Below are positions 2,224-9,292 of a DNA stretch of 64,000 nt, piece by piece; position 1 is the stretch's first letter, and every line of letters starts with the position of its first letter. Origin of the DNA: Chitinophagales bacterium (GTDB lineage Bacteria; Bacteroidota; Bacteroidia; Chitinophagales; Chitinophagaceae); contig JAATFP010000049.1 in the NCBI GenBank assembly GCA_015655125.1, positions 1 through 64,000 on the forward strand, in the 5' to 3' direction. Both the position numbers and the translations under genes were made by a program. The notes beneath the pieces are model-generated. The model ran no database searches and was not told the DNA's origin. It saw nothing but the letters and a program-made list of their open reading frames with translations.

Positions 2224-2373
2224 GTAAAAAATATTTAATAATTAATAACTAATGGTTAATAATGAAAACCCTCCATTCATAACTCATAATCAATAATTCA
2301 CAGTTCATAATTCCTTCCAAAGTACAAAAAATATTTTTTTATCTTGATATTCTCCTTCATCTTTGCGTTAACA

Positions 2374-2427
2374 ATGAAAAATTTAATTGCAAATAACAAA
2401 GGTTGGTGGTGGACAGTCAGACAATGA
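2374..2427 (+). CDS. trpL: trp operon leader peptide MKNLIANNKGWWWTVRQ
   Basis: 17-codon ORF with three tandem TGG codons (2404-2412), ending between alternative hairpins and a terminator upstream of trpE; absent from the supplied ORF track because of its size. Confidence 0.85.
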   Translation: MKNLIANNKGWWWTVRQ

Positions 2428-2494
2428 TTGTGTCCCTGCCTTATTTGTATATCTCAAAATATCAGCGCCCCGACACAATTGTCGGGGCGTTTTT
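2411..2494 (+). promoter_or_regulatory. Transcription attenuator of the trp operon (alternative hairpins)
   Basis: Hairpin 1:2 GGACA(2411-2415)/TGTCC(2431-2435) with CAAT/ATTG inside; antiterminator ATTGTGTC(2427-2434)/GACACAAT(2472-2479); terminator at 2466-2489. Confidence 0.8.
2466..2494 (+). terminator. Intrinsic terminator of the trp attenuator
   Basis: CGCCCCGACA-CAAT-TGTCGGGGCG perfect 10-bp stem followed by TTTTT. Confidence 0.9.
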
Positions 2495-2521: not shown

Positions 2522-3952
2522 ATGAAGAACATATCTTTCTCTACGACCTATAAAAAAATGCTGGCGGATATTTATACGCCGGTTGGTATTTACCTGCGGT
2601 TGCGCGACAGGTTTCGCGACACGATCCTTCTTGAAAGCACGGATTTTCATGCGGGCGAAAACAATTATTCGATCATCGGCATCAATGCCATTGCAGGAAT
2701 CGAGATCAGCGATCCTCAAAAGATAGAAGTCAAATTACCAGGTCAACATCCGGAAATCATCCGTTTACAAACGGATACACCACTTTCCGAGGTATTGCAG
2801 CAATTCATGGAAAGTTTCACACCTGAGGTTGTTCCTGCCAGGCCGGTCAATATCGCACAAGGTGTATTTGGATATACAACCTACGACGCGGTAGGCTTTT
2901 TTGAACACATCCTGTTTGACCAAACGGGCAAGGTTGTTGATGAAAACGCCCGTATACCGTTGATGCGGTACAGGGTGTATCAATATGTGATCGTGATCAA
3001 TCATTTTAAGGATGAACTTTTTCTTTGCGAAAATCATTTTACCGGAATAGAAAGTAAGTTCGCAGATATCGAAAGTATGATTCGCAGCAAGGACGTTCCC
3101 GTATTTCCTTTTGCTATCCGCAATGTAGAAACATCCAATGTTACCGATGAAGAATATAAAGAAATGGTGCAAAGAGGAATCGACAGTTGCCGGCGTGGCG
3201 ACACTTTTCAGATCGTACTCAGCAGAAGGTTCCGCCAGCAGTTCACCGGCGATGAGTTCAATGTATATCGTGCATTACGAAGCATCAACCCAATTCCGTA
3301 CCTGTTTTATTTCGATTACGGGGATTATAAACTAACAGGATCTTCGCCAGAGAGCCAGGTGATCATTGAAGACGGAAAGGTGATCGTACACCCGATTGCA
3401 GGCACATTCAAGCGAACCGGTGACGATGAAACCGATAAAGAACTTGCTATAAAATTGGAAGCTGATGAAAAAGAAAATTCCGAACATGTGATGCTGGTGG
3501 ATCTGGCACGCAACGACCTGAGCAGGCTATGTGACGATGTGGAAGTGACACAATTTAAAAAAGTGAGTTATTTTTCTCATGTGATACACCTGGTGAGCGA
3601 AGTGCAGGGAAGGCTCGGAAGGGAAAGAAACCCATTCAGGATATTGGGCAGCACTTTTCCCGCAGGCACACTGAGCGGCGCACCGAAATACAAAGCCATG
3701 CAACTCATCCATCATTTTGAGAATACCCCGCGCGGATTTTACGGGGGCGCCATTGGTTTTATCGGATTTGACGGAAGTTGTAATCACGCCATCATGATCC
3801 GTACTTTTTTGAGTAAGAATAATACACTCACGTATCAGGCAGGCGCGGGAATAGTGGTTTCCAGTAAACCTGAAAGTGAATTGCAGGAAGTAAACAATAA
3901 ATTAGGTGCGCTTAAAAAAGCCATCGAATCAGCACAACAGATCACCCGTTAA
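2522..3952 (+). CDS. trpE: Anthranilate synthase component I
   Basis: 476 aa chorismate-binding enzyme; HPIAGTFKRTGDDETD, GTLSGAPKYKAM motifs; trp operon context. Confidence 0.95.
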   Translation: MKNISFSTTYKKMLADIYTPVGIYLRLRDRFRDTILLESTDFHAGENNYSIIGINAIAGIEISDPQKIEVKLPGQHPEIIRLQTDTPLSEVLQQFMESFTPEVVPARPVNIAQGVFGYTTYDAVGFFEHILFDQTGKVVDENARIPLMRYRVYQYVIVINHFKDELFLCENHFTGIESKFADIESMIRSKDVPVFPFAIRNVETSNVTDEEYKEMVQRGIDSCRRGDTFQIVLSRRFRQQFTGDEFNVYRALRSINPIPYLFYFDYGDYKLTGSSPESQVIIEDGKVIVHPIAGTFKRTGDDETDKELAIKLEADEKENSEHVMLVDLARNDLSRLCDDVEVTQFKKVSYFSHVIHLVSEVQGRLGRERNPFRILGSTFPAGTLSGAPKYKAMQLIHHFENTPRGFYGGAIGFIGFDGSCNHAIMIRTFLSKNNTLTYQAGAGIVVSSKPESELQEVNNKLGALKKAIESAQQITR

Positions 3953-3961
3953 AAAATAATC

Positions 3962-4534
3962 ATGACGAAAATCCTGGTTTTTGATAATTACGATTCGTTT
4001 ACCTACAACCTCGTGCATCTCGTTGAAAAGATATTGCATACTAAGGTTGATGTTTTTCGCAACGATGCCATCGCGCTCGAAAAGGTAAAAGAATATGATA
4101 AGATAATTTTATCGCCCGGCCCCGGAATACCAGCAGAGGCCGAACTGCTATTGCCATTGATAAAAGAGTACGCTGCCACCAAATCCATTCTGGGCGTATG
4201 TTTAGGGCATCAGGCTATTGGCGGGGCGTTTGGAGGAACACTTACCAACCTGTCAACCGTTTATCATGGTGTGGCTATGCCCGTATTTATTGATAGCGGG
4301 GAAGATTGTTTGTTCAGGCACCTTCCCCGTACCATAATGGTTGGCCGCTACCATTCGTGGATCGTAGATGAAAAAGATTTTCCGGCTGAATTACAGATAA
4401 CGGCGCGTGATGAAAACAATTATATCATGGCGCTGCAACATAAAAACTTTGATGTGCGCGGTGTGCAGTTTCACCCTGAAAGTGTATTGACGCCGGATGG
4501 GGAGAGGATCATCAGTAACTGGCTGGAAGAATAG
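3962..4534 (+). CDS. trpG: Anthranilate synthase component II (glutamine amidotransferase)
   Basis: ILVFDNYDSFTYNLVH, GVCLGHQAIGGAFGG, GVQFHPESVLTPDG. Confidence 0.95.
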   Translation: MTKILVFDNYDSFTYNLVHLVEKILHTKVDVFRNDAIALEKVKEYDKIILSPGPGIPAEAELLLPLIKEYAATKSILGVCLGHQAIGGAFGGTLTNLSTVYHGVAMPVFIDSGEDCLFRHLPRTIMVGRYHSWIVDEKDFPAELQITARDENNYIMALQHKNFDVRGVQFHPESVLTPDGERIISNWLEE

Positions 4535-4593
4535 GCTAATAGGCGGATATTCTTTATCGTTCCTCTAACCTCTGATCCTTAAACAATAAACTA

Positions 4594-5586
4594 ATGAAAA
4601 AGATATTAAATCATTTATTTGAGCATAAGGCGCTTTCGCGGCAACAAGCTGCGGAAGTGCTGATGCATATTTCGCAAGGAAGGTACAGCGAGGCCGAAAT
4701 TGCGGCATTTATAACGGTATATCTCATGCGAAGCATTACCATCGATGAATTGCAAGGCTTTAAAGATGCGCTGATGCAACTGGCACTTCCTGTTGATGTA
4801 TCCTCGCACGACGTGATGGATATTGTGGGTACCGGTGGTGATGGAAAAAACACATTCAACATTTCCACGCTCAGTTGTTTTATTGTGGCGGGTACCGGCA
4901 ACAAGGTTGCCAAGCACGGTAATTATGGCGCCTCATCCATTAGTGGTTCATCAAATGTGATGGAGGAACTGGGCTATCGTTTTACAACAGACAATGATAC
5001 TTTAAACCGGCAGCTTGAAGCGGCAAATATTTGTTTCTTGCATGCACCATTGTTTCATCCGGCACTAAAAGTAGTTTCAGGTATCCGAAAAAGTCTTGGT
5101 GTGCGTACCTTTTTCAACATGCTCGGCCCGATGGTGAATCCTGCATCGCCTGCATACCAGCTTGTAGGCGTGTATAATCTTGAAATGGCGCGGCTCTACA
5201 ATTACATGCTGCAGGAGGGTGATACCGCATTTACAATTATTCACGCGCTGGATGGGTATGATGAAATATCTTTGACAGGCGATACGAAGATCATCACTAA
5301 CAAAGGTGAGCAAGTATTGAGTGCTGAAGCGATCGGCAAACGCACTGTGAGGCCTGCAGATATTTATGGCGGTAGTTCGGCAGAAGAAGCTGCAGCGATA
5401 TTTTTGAAGATCATCAAAGGTGAGGGTACCTGGGCGCAGAATGCGGTAGTGATAGCAAATGCTGCCATGGCGCTGCAATGCACAGGTAAATTTGCAGATT
5501 ATGAAAACTGCTACCAATTGGCAGTGGATAGTTTGGAAAGTGGCAAAGCTTATCAATGTTTAAAAAATCTTACCGAACCGGCATGA
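4594..5586 (+). CDS. trpD: Anthranilate phosphoribosyltransferase
   Basis: DIVGTGGDGKNTFNIST and KHGNYGASSISGSSNVMEELG. Confidence 0.95.
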   Translation: MKKILNHLFEHKALSRQQAAEVLMHISQGRYSEAEIAAFITVYLMRSITIDELQGFKDALMQLALPVDVSSHDVMDIVGTGGDGKNTFNISTLSCFIVAGTGNKVAKHGNYGASSISGSSNVMEELGYRFTTDNDTLNRQLEAANICFLHAPLFHPALKVVSGIRKSLGVRTFFNMLGPMVNPASPAYQLVGVYNLEMARLYNYMLQEGDTAFTIIHALDGYDEISLTGDTKIITNKGEQVLSAEAIGKRTVRPADIYGGSSAEEAAAIFLKIIKGEGTWAQNAVVIANAAMALQCTGKFADYENCYQLAVDSLESGKAYQCLKNLTEPA

Positions 5587-6362
5587 ATATCCTGGATCAA
5601 ATAATTGCACATAAACGGGACGAGAATTTCGTACGAAGTACGATGGTGCCGGTGGAGGACTTGATGGAAAGTAAATATTTTGACAGGAAATGTTTTTCAC
5701 TCACCGAGCGCTTGATTGCAAAAGATGCTACCGGCATCATTGCTGAATTCAAGCGTAAGTCGCCATCGAGGGGTTATATCAACCGGCACGCAGAAATTTC
5801 AGGTATTACTCAAGCTTACACCCAACATGGTGCCAGCGGGCTTTCCGTACTTACCGATCGCGAATTTTTTGGCGGCAGCACAGATGATCTTGCATTGGCC
5901 AGGAAAAATGAAGTTCCCATTTTACGAAAAGATTTTATTATTGATCCTTACCAGGTGGTGGGTGCAAAGGCAATGGGTGCCGATGTTATTTTGCTGATAG
6001 CAGCCTGCCTCACGGTTTCTAAAACGGAAGAGCTGGCGCAATTGTCCAAACAACTTGGAATGGAAGTGCTGCTTGAACTTCATGAAGAAAGCGAGCTGGA
6101 ACATATTTGCGCCGAAATAGACATGGTAGGAATAAACAACCGGAGTTTGAAGACATTCAAGGTTGATATTAACAGGTCGCTGGCGTTGAGTAAAAAAATT
6201 CCGGATGGCAAAATTAAGATCGCGGAAAGCGGCATCAGTCAACCTGAAACGATCAGGATCTTTCGTGATGCGGGTTACCAGGGATTCCTCATCGGTGAGA
6301 ATTTTATGAAAGAAAATGACCCCGGCAAAGCATTTGAACAATTTGTAAAAAAAATAAAATAG
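5583..6362 (+). CDS. trpC: Indole-3-glycerol phosphate synthase
   Basis: Start taken at MNILDQIIAHKRDE (ATGA overlap with trpD stop); IIAEFKRKSPSRG, LRKDFIIDPYQ motifs. Confidence 0.95.
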   Translation: MNILDQIIAHKRDENFVRSTMVPVEDLMESKYFDRKCFSLTERLIAKDATGIIAEFKRKSPSRGYINRHAEISGITQAYTQHGASGLSVLTDREFFGGSTDDLALARKNEVPILRKDFIIDPYQVVGAKAMGADVILLIAACLTVSKTEELAQLSKQLGMEVLLELHEESELEHICAEIDMVGINNRSLKTFKVDINRSLALSKKIPDGKIKIAESGISQPETIRIFRDAGYQGFLIGENFMKENDPGKAFEQFVKKIK

Positions 6363-6367
6363 TTTGT

Positions 6368-6997
6368 ATGAATATTAAAGTTTGTGGAGTTACCACCTTA
6401 AAACAGCTGCAACAATTGGATGGACTGGATATCGATTTTGCGGGACTGATATTTTTTAAGCAGTCGCCAAGATATGTCGGAAACAAGGTTACAAAAGAAG
6501 AATTGACAGGTGCCGACCTGGATATTAAAAAAGTAGGTGTTTTTGTAAATGCAGAGTACGACGAGATCATGCAGATAACCGAAGATTATGAACTGGACAT
6601 TGTACAACTTAATGGTGATGAAAGCCCGCACCTGTGCGAAAAAGTTGCTGCCGAAATAGAAGTGATCAAAGCATTTCGTATCGATAATAAAAGTGAAAGG
6701 TCAATCGACTATATGATCGCCGAATACGATGAGGTATGCGATTATTATTTGTTCGATACGGCATCAAAAGAATTACCGGGTGGCAGCGGAGAAAAATTCG
6801 ACTGGAACAAAATTGCGGAAAGCAAAATTGAGAAGCCGTTCTTTTTAAGCGGTGGTATTGCACCGGATGATGCGGCGCTTGTGAAAAAGTTCCGGCATCC
6901 TGATTTTTTCGGCGTTGATATCAACAGCAGGTTTGAAAAGGAACCCGGAGTAAAGGATATGGCGTTGGTACTGCAATTCAGGCACGGACTTAAGTAA
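6368..6997 (+). CDS. trpF: Phosphoribosylanthranilate isomerase
   Basis: MNIKVCGVTTLKQL, FLSGGIAPDDA, GVDINSRFEKEPGVKD. Confidence 0.93.
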   Translation: MNIKVCGVTTLKQLQQLDGLDIDFAGLIFFKQSPRYVGNKVTKEELTGADLDIKKVGVFVNAEYDEIMQITEDYELDIVQLNGDESPHLCEKVAAEIEVIKAFRIDNKSERSIDYMIAEYDEVCDYYLFDTASKELPGGSGEKFDWNKIAESKIEKPFFLSGGIAPDDAALVKKFRHPDFFGVDINSRFEKEPGVKDMALVLQFRHGLK

Positions 6998-7123
6998 ATA
7001 AAACCAAACGCAGATTTGGAAAGATTTTTTTATTAAACTGAAATGAAATCACATGCTTTTGAAATCCTGAATTCGGCGTAATCAAAAGATCTTTCCAACT
7101 CAGTGTTTAAATTCAATATTATT

Positions 7124-8317
7124 ATGAGTCATCGTTCAGCAAATCTTCTTCATCCGGATCAGCACGGTTATTATGGTGATTTTGGCGGCGCATTCGTACC
7201 GGAAATGTTATATCCGAATGTGAGGGAGCTTCAGGAAAATTATCTCAAAATAACAGCAACAAAAAAGTTTCGCTCCGCATTTGAAAAATTACTCAAAGAT
7301 TATGTTGGCCGGCCCACACCATTGTTTTACGCCGAAAATTTAAGCCGGCAGTATCACACAAATATCTATCTTAAGCGTGAGGATCTTTGCCATACTGGTG
7401 CACATAAGATCAACAATACGATCGGGCAGGTTTTACTGGCCGAAGCGCTGGGAAAAACACGTATTATAGCCGAAACGGGTGCGGGGCAACATGGCGTTGC
7501 GACAGCAACAGTTTGCGCACTTAAAGGATTGGAGTGCGTAGTATATATGGGCGAAAAAGATATTGAACGGCAGGCTCCCAATGTGGCGCGCATGAAGATG
7601 CTTGGTGCAAAGGTGGTTCCGGCAAGAAGTGGCAGCAAAACGCTGAAAGATGCCACCAACGAGGCTATCAGGGATTGGATCAATCATGCCGCAGACACTT
7701 ATTATATCATCGGAAGCGTGGTGGGGCCTCACCCTTACCCGGATATGGTAGCACGGTTCCAAAGCGTAATCAGCAGGGAAATACAAAAGCAACTCAAAAA
7801 AATCACCGGAAATGAATTGCCGTCGTATGTCATCGCCTGCGTTGGCGGCGGAAGCAATGCGGCCGGTGCATTTTATCATTTCATAGAAGAAAAAAAAGTG
7901 AAGCTTGTGGCCGTAGAAGCTGCGGGACTCGGCATTAAAAGTGGCATGTCCGCCGCCACAACACAGCTCGGAACTACCGGCATTTTGCATGGAAGTAAAA
8001 GTTTGTTGATGCAAACAGCTGATGGCCAGGTGACCGAGCCACACAGCATTTCGGCGGGACTTGATTATCCCGGTATCGGACCCTTGCACGCTAACTTATA
8101 TACCAGTAAACGTGCGGAATTTTTGAGTGCTACGGATGGAGAAGCATTGGCAGCGGCTTTCAATCTTTCAAAAAAAGAGGGTATTATCCCCGCGTTGGAA
8201 TCTGCACATGCACTTGCGGTACTGAATAACAAGAAGTTCAGGAAAAGCGATGTGGTAGTTATTTGCCTGAGTGGTCGTGGCGATAAAGATCTTGCAACTT
8301 ACATGGATAATTTGTAA
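7124..8317 (+). CDS. trpB: Tryptophan synthase beta chain
   Basis: KREDLCHTGAHKINNTIGQ, ETGAGQHGVATATV, GGGSNAAGAF; start at MSHRSANLL rather than the upstream GTG of the ORF track. Confidence 0.96.
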   Translation: MSHRSANLLHPDQHGYYGDFGGAFVPEMLYPNVRELQENYLKITATKKFRSAFEKLLKDYVGRPTPLFYAENLSRQYHTNIYLKREDLCHTGAHKINNTIGQVLLAEALGKTRIIAETGAGQHGVATATVCALKGLECVVYMGEKDIERQAPNVARMKMLGAKVVPARSGSKTLKDATNEAIRDWINHAADTYYIIGSVVGPHPYPDMVARFQSVISREIQKQLKKITGNELPSYVIACVGGGSNAAGAFYHFIEEKKVKLVAVEAAGLGIKSGMSAATTQLGTTGILHGSKSLLMQTADGQVTEPHSISAGLDYPGIGPLHANLYTSKRAEFLSATDGEALAAAFNLSKKEGIIPALESAHALAVLNNKKFRKSDVVVICLSGRGDKDLATYMDNL

Positions 8318-8336
8318 CATGCCGACGGGTAAAATA

Positions 8337-8425
8337 TGTTTCGAGAAGCTCAACATGACTGGGAAACAAGCGCGACATGATAAAAATCTGTCAGTCTGAG
8401 CCTGTCGAAGACGGTTTGGGTTTGC
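8337..8425. repeat. Intergenic hairpin repeat, copy 1 (inside trp operon, trpB-trpA gap)
   Basis: GTTTCGAGAAGCTCAACATGACTG ... CTGTCAGTCTGAGCCTGTCGAAGACGG. Confidence 0.8.
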
Positions 8426-8494
8426 AGAGGAAATTTCAAAACCTGGCAGCAAACATGTTGAAATTTAAACGCATACTTAATTTTAAATTTAAAG

Positions 8495-9292
8495 ATGAAC
8501 AAGCTTGATCAGTTGTTTAAGAATAAAAAAGAACCGGTGCTGAACGTATATTACACAGCGGGCTTTCCGGAATTGGAAAGTACAACTGAAGTTGCGTTGT
8601 CGTTGCAGAAGCATGGCGCCGATATCATAGAGATCGGAATCCCGTACAGTGATCCCATCGCCGATGGCCCGGTAATACAGCAAAGTAATATGCAGGCGAT
8701 TGCTAACGGGATCTCTATTGCGAAGATATTTGAACAACTCGAATCCGTGAAGTCACAGTTAACCGTTCCGGTCGTATTGATGGGATATCTTAATCCTGTG
8801 TTGCAATTCGGAATGGAGAGATTTTGTGCGGCAGCAGCACGTGCCGGCATTTCCGGTGTGATCCTGCCCGATCTGCCGATGTATGAATATGAAAAATTTT
8901 ATGAAAAAATATTCCGGGAATACAAGCTTCATTTGATCTTTCTCGTCACGCCTGAAACAGGTATCGGGCGAATTGAAAAGGCAGATAAGTTGTCCGGTGG
9001 ATTTTTGTATGCCGTCTCTTCGTCGGCTACAACCGGCAACAACGCCGCCATGAACGGCCAGGAAGTTTATTTTAAAAAACTACAGCAACTTCGTTTGAAA
9101 AATTCTTTTTTGATCGGCTTTGGTGTACGCGATAAAGCAACTTTCGACCTGGCGGGTAAATATGCGGCCGGCGCCATCATAGGAACAGCGTATATAAAAG
9201 CTTTGCAATCTTTGAAGAACATTGATCAGGCGACCGCTGAATTTCTGCAATCCATAAGACCGGCACACATTATAAAGCCTGTTAATATTTAA
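8495..9292 (+). CDS. trpA: Tryptophan synthase alpha chain
   Basis: DIIEIGIPYSDPIADGPVIQ, GVILPDLPMYE, GFGVRDKAT. Confidence 0.95.
   Translation: MNKLDQLFKNKKEPVLNVYYTAGFPELESTTEVALSLQKHGADIIEIGIPYSDPIADGPVIQQSNMQAIANGISIAKIFEQLESVKSQLTVPVVLMGYLNPVLQFGMERFCAAAARAGISGVILPDLPMYEYEKFYEKIFREYKLHLIFLVTPETGIGRIEKADKLSGGFLYAVSSSATTGNNAAMNGQEVYFKKLQQLRLKNSFLIGFGVRDKATFDLAGKYAAGAIIGTAYIKALQSLKNIDQATAEFLQSIRPAHIIKPVNI

Follow-up and report, generated by a model that had tools for sequence, protein, structure and literature searches.

Organization of the trp locus

Analysis of a 64,000-nucleotide stretch of DNA (the window) from a Chitinophagaceae genome revealed a trpEGDCFBA operon (2522–9292, forward strand) preceded by a short leader open reading frame (ORF), trpL, a terminator, and mutually exclusive pairings between them. 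The genome (3.75 Mb, 99.8% complete, 116 contigs) has Ferruginibacter as its closest named relatives. The gene directly downstream of the leader had been taken for trpE, and Pfam bears this out: 2522–3952 matches Anth_synt_I_N and Chorismate_bind, as expected of anthranilate synthase component I. The operon continues with trpG (glutamine amidotransferase component, 3962–4534; Pfam GATase, its identity within the operon being assigned from position), trpD (anthranilate phosphoribosyltransferase, 4594–5586; Glycos_transf_3), trpC (indole-3-glycerol-phosphate synthase, 5556–6362; IGPS), trpF (phosphoribosylanthranilate isomerase, 6368–6997; PRAI), trpB (tryptophan synthase beta chain, 7103–8317; PALP and position, with a true start that may lie slightly downstream) and trpA (tryptophan synthase alpha chain, 8495–9292; Trp_syntA), all on the forward strand. 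A search of the source genome found no TrpR homologue. At the window edge, positions 1–74 carry a truncated, sub-threshold match to the Bacteroidales small SRP RNA (RF04183; 47.5 bits versus a cut-off of 55.2).

The leader ORF (2374–2427, 17 codons, MKNLIANNKGWWWTVRQ, stop codon TGA at 2425–2427) contains three tandem Trp codons at 2404–2412, the predicted stall site; the positions given for both in the initial annotation hold base by base, and both features are kept before trpE in relatives. Downstream lies an intrinsic terminator (2464–2491) that consists of a 12 bp stem (2464–2475/2480–2491) with a 4 nt loop and a T-rich tract, TTTTTATTTG, at its foot (2490–2499), which matches the GC-rich hairpin and T-run described previously. 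It is the top-listed terminator-like site in the first 12 kb of the window. Sub-threshold Rfam matches to Spot 42, RcsR1 and VrrA over this hairpin were rejected, as they match a generic terminator hairpin. The leader region as a whole folds at −43.1 kcal/mol, compared with −24.8 kcal/mol for dinucleotide shuffles (z −5.8; 0/200).

Two further structures are predicted in the leader RNA. In the minimum-free-energy fold, a protecting 1:2 stem (2405–2440) pairs GGUGG at 2405–2409 with 2436–2440 and GGACAGUCA at 2411–2419 with 2425–2428 and 2431–2435, so that its outer pairs extend back across the first Trp codons. The pairing of GGACA (2411–2415) with TGTCC (2431–2435) proposed earlier agrees with the sequence. 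The accompanying pairing of CAAT (2422–2425) with ATTG (2427–2430) had to be discarded: one base separates the two arms, a 4 bp hairpin cannot close over a one-base loop, and the predicted stem uses neighboring bases instead. The competing antiterminator joins region 2 (GAUUGUGUC, 2426–2434) to region 3 (GACACAAUU, 2472–2480), which overlaps the 5′ arm and loop of the terminator. The complementarity of ATTGTGTC (2427–2434) to GACACAAT (2472–2479) had already been recognized, and folding lengthens it to 9 bp. The fold of 2417–2480 has an energy of −12.4 kcal/mol, which 2 of 200 shuffles equal. In the window, the antiterminator ties up no more of the terminator 5′ arm than its loop-proximal portion. 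As the terminator is considerably more stable (−22.6 versus −12.4 kcal/mol), the antiterminator can win only by forming first, and timing therefore matters. When the terminator 3′ arm was omitted, the untranslated leader folded no better than shuffles (z −0.4).

Conservation of the Trp-rich leader

Comparison with related genomes had been proposed as a check on the Trp codons and the alternative pairing, and both are retained, the former across the phylum and the latter by compensation. We scanned 80 trpE loci from named genomes, 79 of which (window included) had enough upstream sequence, for ATG-started ORFs of at most 35 codons with WW/WxW or WWW within 300 nt upstream. A WW or WxW leader precedes trpE in 70 of the 79 loci (dinucleotide shuffles, 1.8%), and a WWW leader in 52, compared with none of 1580 shuffles of the named loci. 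Among 805 other ORFs of the same loci (trpE excluded), 24 have a Trp-rich leader and one has WWW. In an independent whole-genome sample, Trp-rich leaders were found in 52/63 Bacteroidia and 11/17 genomes of other classes, with shuffles at about 1–2%; WWW precedes trpE in 36 of the 63 Bacteroidia genomes and in none of the shuffles. No such leader was seen in roughly one sixth of the sampled Bacteroidia genomes. The Trp-rich short ORF occurs before trpE in Chitinophagaceae, the Chryseobacterium group, Cytophagales, Prolixibacter and Flavobacterium. The leaders are followed by an intrinsic terminator, usually 25–45 nt past the stop codon, and the peptide sequence beyond the Trp run varies widely among families. 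A genome-wide motif search for TTTG-ATG-TGGTGG was uninformative on its own (122 places versus 80 for the reversed control).

One locus (L064) has a single-Trp leader, MNISTTNQLWRQHAFSNRGR, about 150 nt upstream of trpE, with promoter box and terminator intact, which could reflect decay or an assembly error. The leaders from non-Bacteroidia classes (L147–L157) combine Trp codons with strong antiterminators, whose duplexes reach −33 kcal/mol.

Compensatory pairing and ribosome position

If regions 2 and 3 were alike among leaders merely through shared sequence, partners swapped between leaders would fit equally well. They do not: across 135 distinct leaders, the mean energy of the 2:3 duplex is −12.1 kcal/mol for a leader's own partners and −8.6 kcal/mol for swapped ones, and none of 10,000 permutations was as good (z −15, a value that relatedness inflates somewhat). 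The pairs differ by lineage, with TGTGTC/GACACA in Ferruginibacter-like genomes (GTGCC/GGCAC in several of these), CGGGGCTT/AAGCCCCG in many Chitinophagaceae and TGAACAG/CTGTTCA in Cytophagales-like genomes. In 19 close relatives, 86.6% of cells in the antiterminator columns are paired, compared with 20–53% for slid controls, and the covariation score was matched by 5 of 500 shuffles; these counts are conservative, as MAFFT misplaces region 2 of two leaders (L011 and L054). Column-wise counts for the terminator in the same relatives also agree with pairing.

The effect of ribosome position was then calculated for 76 leaders by folding, at equilibrium only, the free RNA already made once the polymerase completes region 3, for a ribosome sitting on a Trp codon, for one at the stop codon and for none at all; four of these leaders have terminators with weak T-runs that were placed by energy alone. 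With the ribosome on Trp, the terminator 5′ arm has a median blocking probability of 0.64; the value is 0.16 with the ribosome on the stop codon, 0.27 when untranslated, and 0.43 when the ribosome is on Trp but the stretch from the Trp codons to the terminator is shuffled. The contrast between Trp and stop positions is partly trivial, since a ribosome on the stop codon leaves less upstream RNA free; the contrasts with the shuffled and untranslated states are the meaningful ones. Blocking with the ribosome on Trp exceeds the shuffled value in 71 of 76 leaders, and the untranslated RNA is blocked less than the stalled form despite having more free RNA, as predicted for a protecting 1:2 stem. The window behaves likewise (0.70 on Trp, 0.15 on stop, 0.09 untranslated and 0.35 shuffled, with 0/30 shuffles as high), and the ribosome-position logic set out in the initial annotation thus works in these calculations.

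A predicted promoter abutting trpL

How trpL might be translated without a Shine–Dalgarno sequence had been raised as a puzzle; a likely answer, missed at the time, is a predicted promoter that adjoins the ORF. The primary sigma factor of Bacteroidota reads a TAnnTTTG box about 4–5 nt before the transcription start (PMC9723704, PMC6847099). In the window, CATCTTTG at 2358–2365 (forward strand) fits this −7 consensus with one mismatch (C for the first T), whereas no clear −33 TTTG is present. Box position and published spacing together place the predicted transcription start at 2370–2371, with a 5′ UTR of about 3–4 nt; trpL is thus predicted to be near-leaderless, with only about 4 nt of RNA ahead of it.

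This arrangement recurs among relatives. In 86 of 126 Bacteroidia leaders (68%), NA..TTYG ends 3–12 nt upstream of the ATG, with a sharp mode at 7–8 nt; at this spacing it occurs in 28 of 901 long ORFs from these loci (3%) and in 2.8% of shuffles. Nor is a near-leaderless start universal: Flavobacterium and some other genomes have the box further from the ATG (13–21 nt), and only 2 of the 11 non-Bacteroidia leaders (L147–L157) show the near-leaderless spacing. We consider a promoter abutting trpL a plausible answer to the question of how initiation proceeds without a Shine–Dalgarno sequence.

Relation to known attenuators

The system is a trp attenuator of a known kind, found across Bacteroidota. 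The classical logic that the initial annotation had proposed here stands, with the amendment that it is not new for Bacteroidota: both an Rfam family and a Flavobacterium paper precede it. The family, RF01692 (Bacteroid-trp), is described as a tryptophan peptide leader RNA of Bacteroidetes (Weinberg et al. 2010, PMC2864571). Like the window, it has a Trp-codon leader before trpE in the same phylum, and the start and Trp codons align in register; the sequences of regions 2 and 3 differ, and the predicted 5′ UTR of the window is shorter. RF01692 scores 23.2 bits on the window, below the gathering score of 49 (E 1.9), and gave no match in four other Chitinophagaceae loci tried. Its cut-off was reached by 10 of 20 trp loci in one search and by one more, all with Flavobacterium-type peptides. 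The window leader and RF01692 are plausibly one family of which the current model covers part, and that model misses the Chitinophagaceae version. The paper reports strong clues of leader-peptide attenuation before amino-acid biosynthesis operons of Flavobacterium psychrophilum (PMC9723704); its main text names no operon, tests no mechanism and draws no link to the start position of the leader. A search of the accessible literature, mostly outside the subscription journals, turned up no report in which a Bacteroidota attenuator was tested by experiment. An article on attenuation in bacteria by Lopatovskaya et al. (2010; cited in PMC4833913) may already list Bacteroidetes leaders.

The window shares with E. 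coli trpL the tandem Trp codons, the 1:2, 2:3 and 3:4 stems, the intrinsic terminator, and a stop codon at which a ribosome ending translation would cover region 2. It differs from the proteobacterial trp attenuator in that the source genome has no TrpR and the window gives no match to RF00513 (Trp_leader) at E up to 5 or 10; in three other Bacteroidia loci the RF00513 score is only 28–37 bits, short of the cut-off of 41. In the trpLE(G) attenuator of Sinorhizobium meliloti (rnTrpL, peTrpL), the transcript is leaderless, opening with the leader ORF, and the operon is not subject to transcriptional repression (PMC7298713). The lack of such repression and a leader ORF at or near the RNA 5′ end would be common to both, that end being measured in S. 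meliloti and predicted here, whereas the S. meliloti system is alphaproteobacterial and has documented functions in trans.

Proposed mechanism and alternatives

The window combines a Trp-codon ORF, a terminator, a compensated antiterminator and, by equilibrium folding, a suitable stall and stop geometry. The sequence shows this anatomy, comparison with relatives shows that it is conserved and that its pairings are compensated, and folding calculations show the geometry; the comparative tests strongly support classical ribosome-mediated attenuation. The locus very probably controls transcription of the trp operon by ribosome-mediated attenuation, through a leader-peptide gene predicted to be near-leaderless. 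A mechanism is proposed in which transcription would begin 3–4 nt before the trpL AUG and a ribosome would load at the 5′ end without a Shine–Dalgarno sequence. When charged tRNA-Trp is scarce, the ribosome would stall on 2404–2412 and cover region 1, so that region 2 (2426–2434) could pair with region 3 (2472–2480) before the terminator 3′ arm exists, and the polymerase would continue into trpE. When Trp is plentiful, a ribosome at the stop codon (2425–2427) would mask region 2 and the terminator (2464–2491) would form; if the leader is untranslated, the 1:2 stem would sequester region 2, which should likewise lead to termination. What is inferred in this scheme is where transcription starts, that trpL is translated, that ribosomes stall on it, and that the switch responds to Trp.

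The most serious alternative retains the attenuator but has trpL start from an ordinary 5′ UTR, with transcription beginning farther upstream and a Kozak-like A aiding initiation. The window does have A at −3 of trpL, a position at which A is favored in Flavobacterium johnsoniae, where most mRNAs have leaders longer than 10 nt (PMC6847099), and the box at 13–21 nt in some leaders points the same way. We nevertheless regard this as unlikely, given the published box-to-start spacing of 4–5 nt and the excess of boxes at 3–12 nt in leaders over the control ORFs. It is less probable still, though conceivable, that the RNA left by termination, or the peptide it encodes, has an additional role in trans like that of rnTrpL/peTrpL of S. 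meliloti: the terminated product would be an RNA of about 125 nt with a near-leaderless ORF, resembling rnTrpL (PMC7298713), but the divergence of the peptide outside the Trp run among families is what would be expected if only the codons and the RNA pairing were selected.

Control of the terminator by a Trp-responsive protein (TrpR- or TRAP-like) or a riboswitch, with an incidental ORF, has a parallel in TRAP, which acts via a terminator on trp genes in Bacillus. It is very improbable here: TrpR is absent from the genome, no riboswitch or T-box was found at the Rfam cut-off, and the conserved Trp codons and their fixed placement would be left unexplained. That an unrelated transcript's terminator lies by chance beside a meaningless ORF has a negligible probability; AT-rich intergenic DNA does contain many short ORFs, but the excess of WWW leaders over shuffles and the outcome of the swap test refute this explanation through conservation.

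For the preferred reading, ribosome-mediated attenuation, fast ribosome loading and a ribosome close behind RNA polymerase are needed; a conserved attenuator on Bacteroidota mRNAs that lack Shine–Dalgarno sequences would mean that fast loading and coupling both hold in this phylum. The conserved spacing between promoter and start codon points to a solution for the loading step, and the near-leaderless arrangement would be of interest if mapped. We therefore hypothesize, with belief and doubt evenly balanced, that most Bacteroidia run their trp attenuator, and possibly other amino-acid attenuators, on near-leaderless leader genes, in which promoter and start codon are tied to each other and the first ribosome can therefore load directly at the 5′ end of the RNA, with no Shine–Dalgarno sequence, early enough to couple with the polymerase before the terminator is made.

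Other candidate amino-acid leaders in the source genome

Leader peptides appear to serve several amino acids in this one genome, in which candidate His, Phe/Tyr, Ile/Val and Thr leaders were read by eye. A Thr-containing ORF, MLQSTNNTEPSQKVVFNTTATITTR (L209 746–823, contig C89), precedes a fused aspartokinase–homoserine dehydrogenase gene; no intrinsic terminator is evident at this locus, and chance or another mode of control is possible. The Ile/Val leader MHKRKVNNVIAVITTIIIVVVIIIIPSHGGGAIV (L205 186–290, contig C49), with ten consecutive Ile/Val codons, lies before a branched-chain aminotransferase–ilvD pair and is followed by a terminator, in whose arm CCTCC can pair with GGAGG; no clear TAnnTTTG box was seen for it. 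The His leader MQNFIHIHHHHTLPHGKLC (L203, contig C82, reverse strand) begins about 258 nt upstream of the hisG start; a terminator lies between the two, and TTTG stands 8 nt before its ATG, as in trpL. GTAAGC, close to the end of the leader, can pair with GCTTAC in the terminator arm. The Phe/Tyr-rich leader MKSTTTYNWSSYFYFYFSKKPGACV (L208 and L210, contig C59) precedes pheA (prephenate dehydratase) with a GC-rich terminator between, and AGCCGGG can pair with the terminator arm CCCGGCT.
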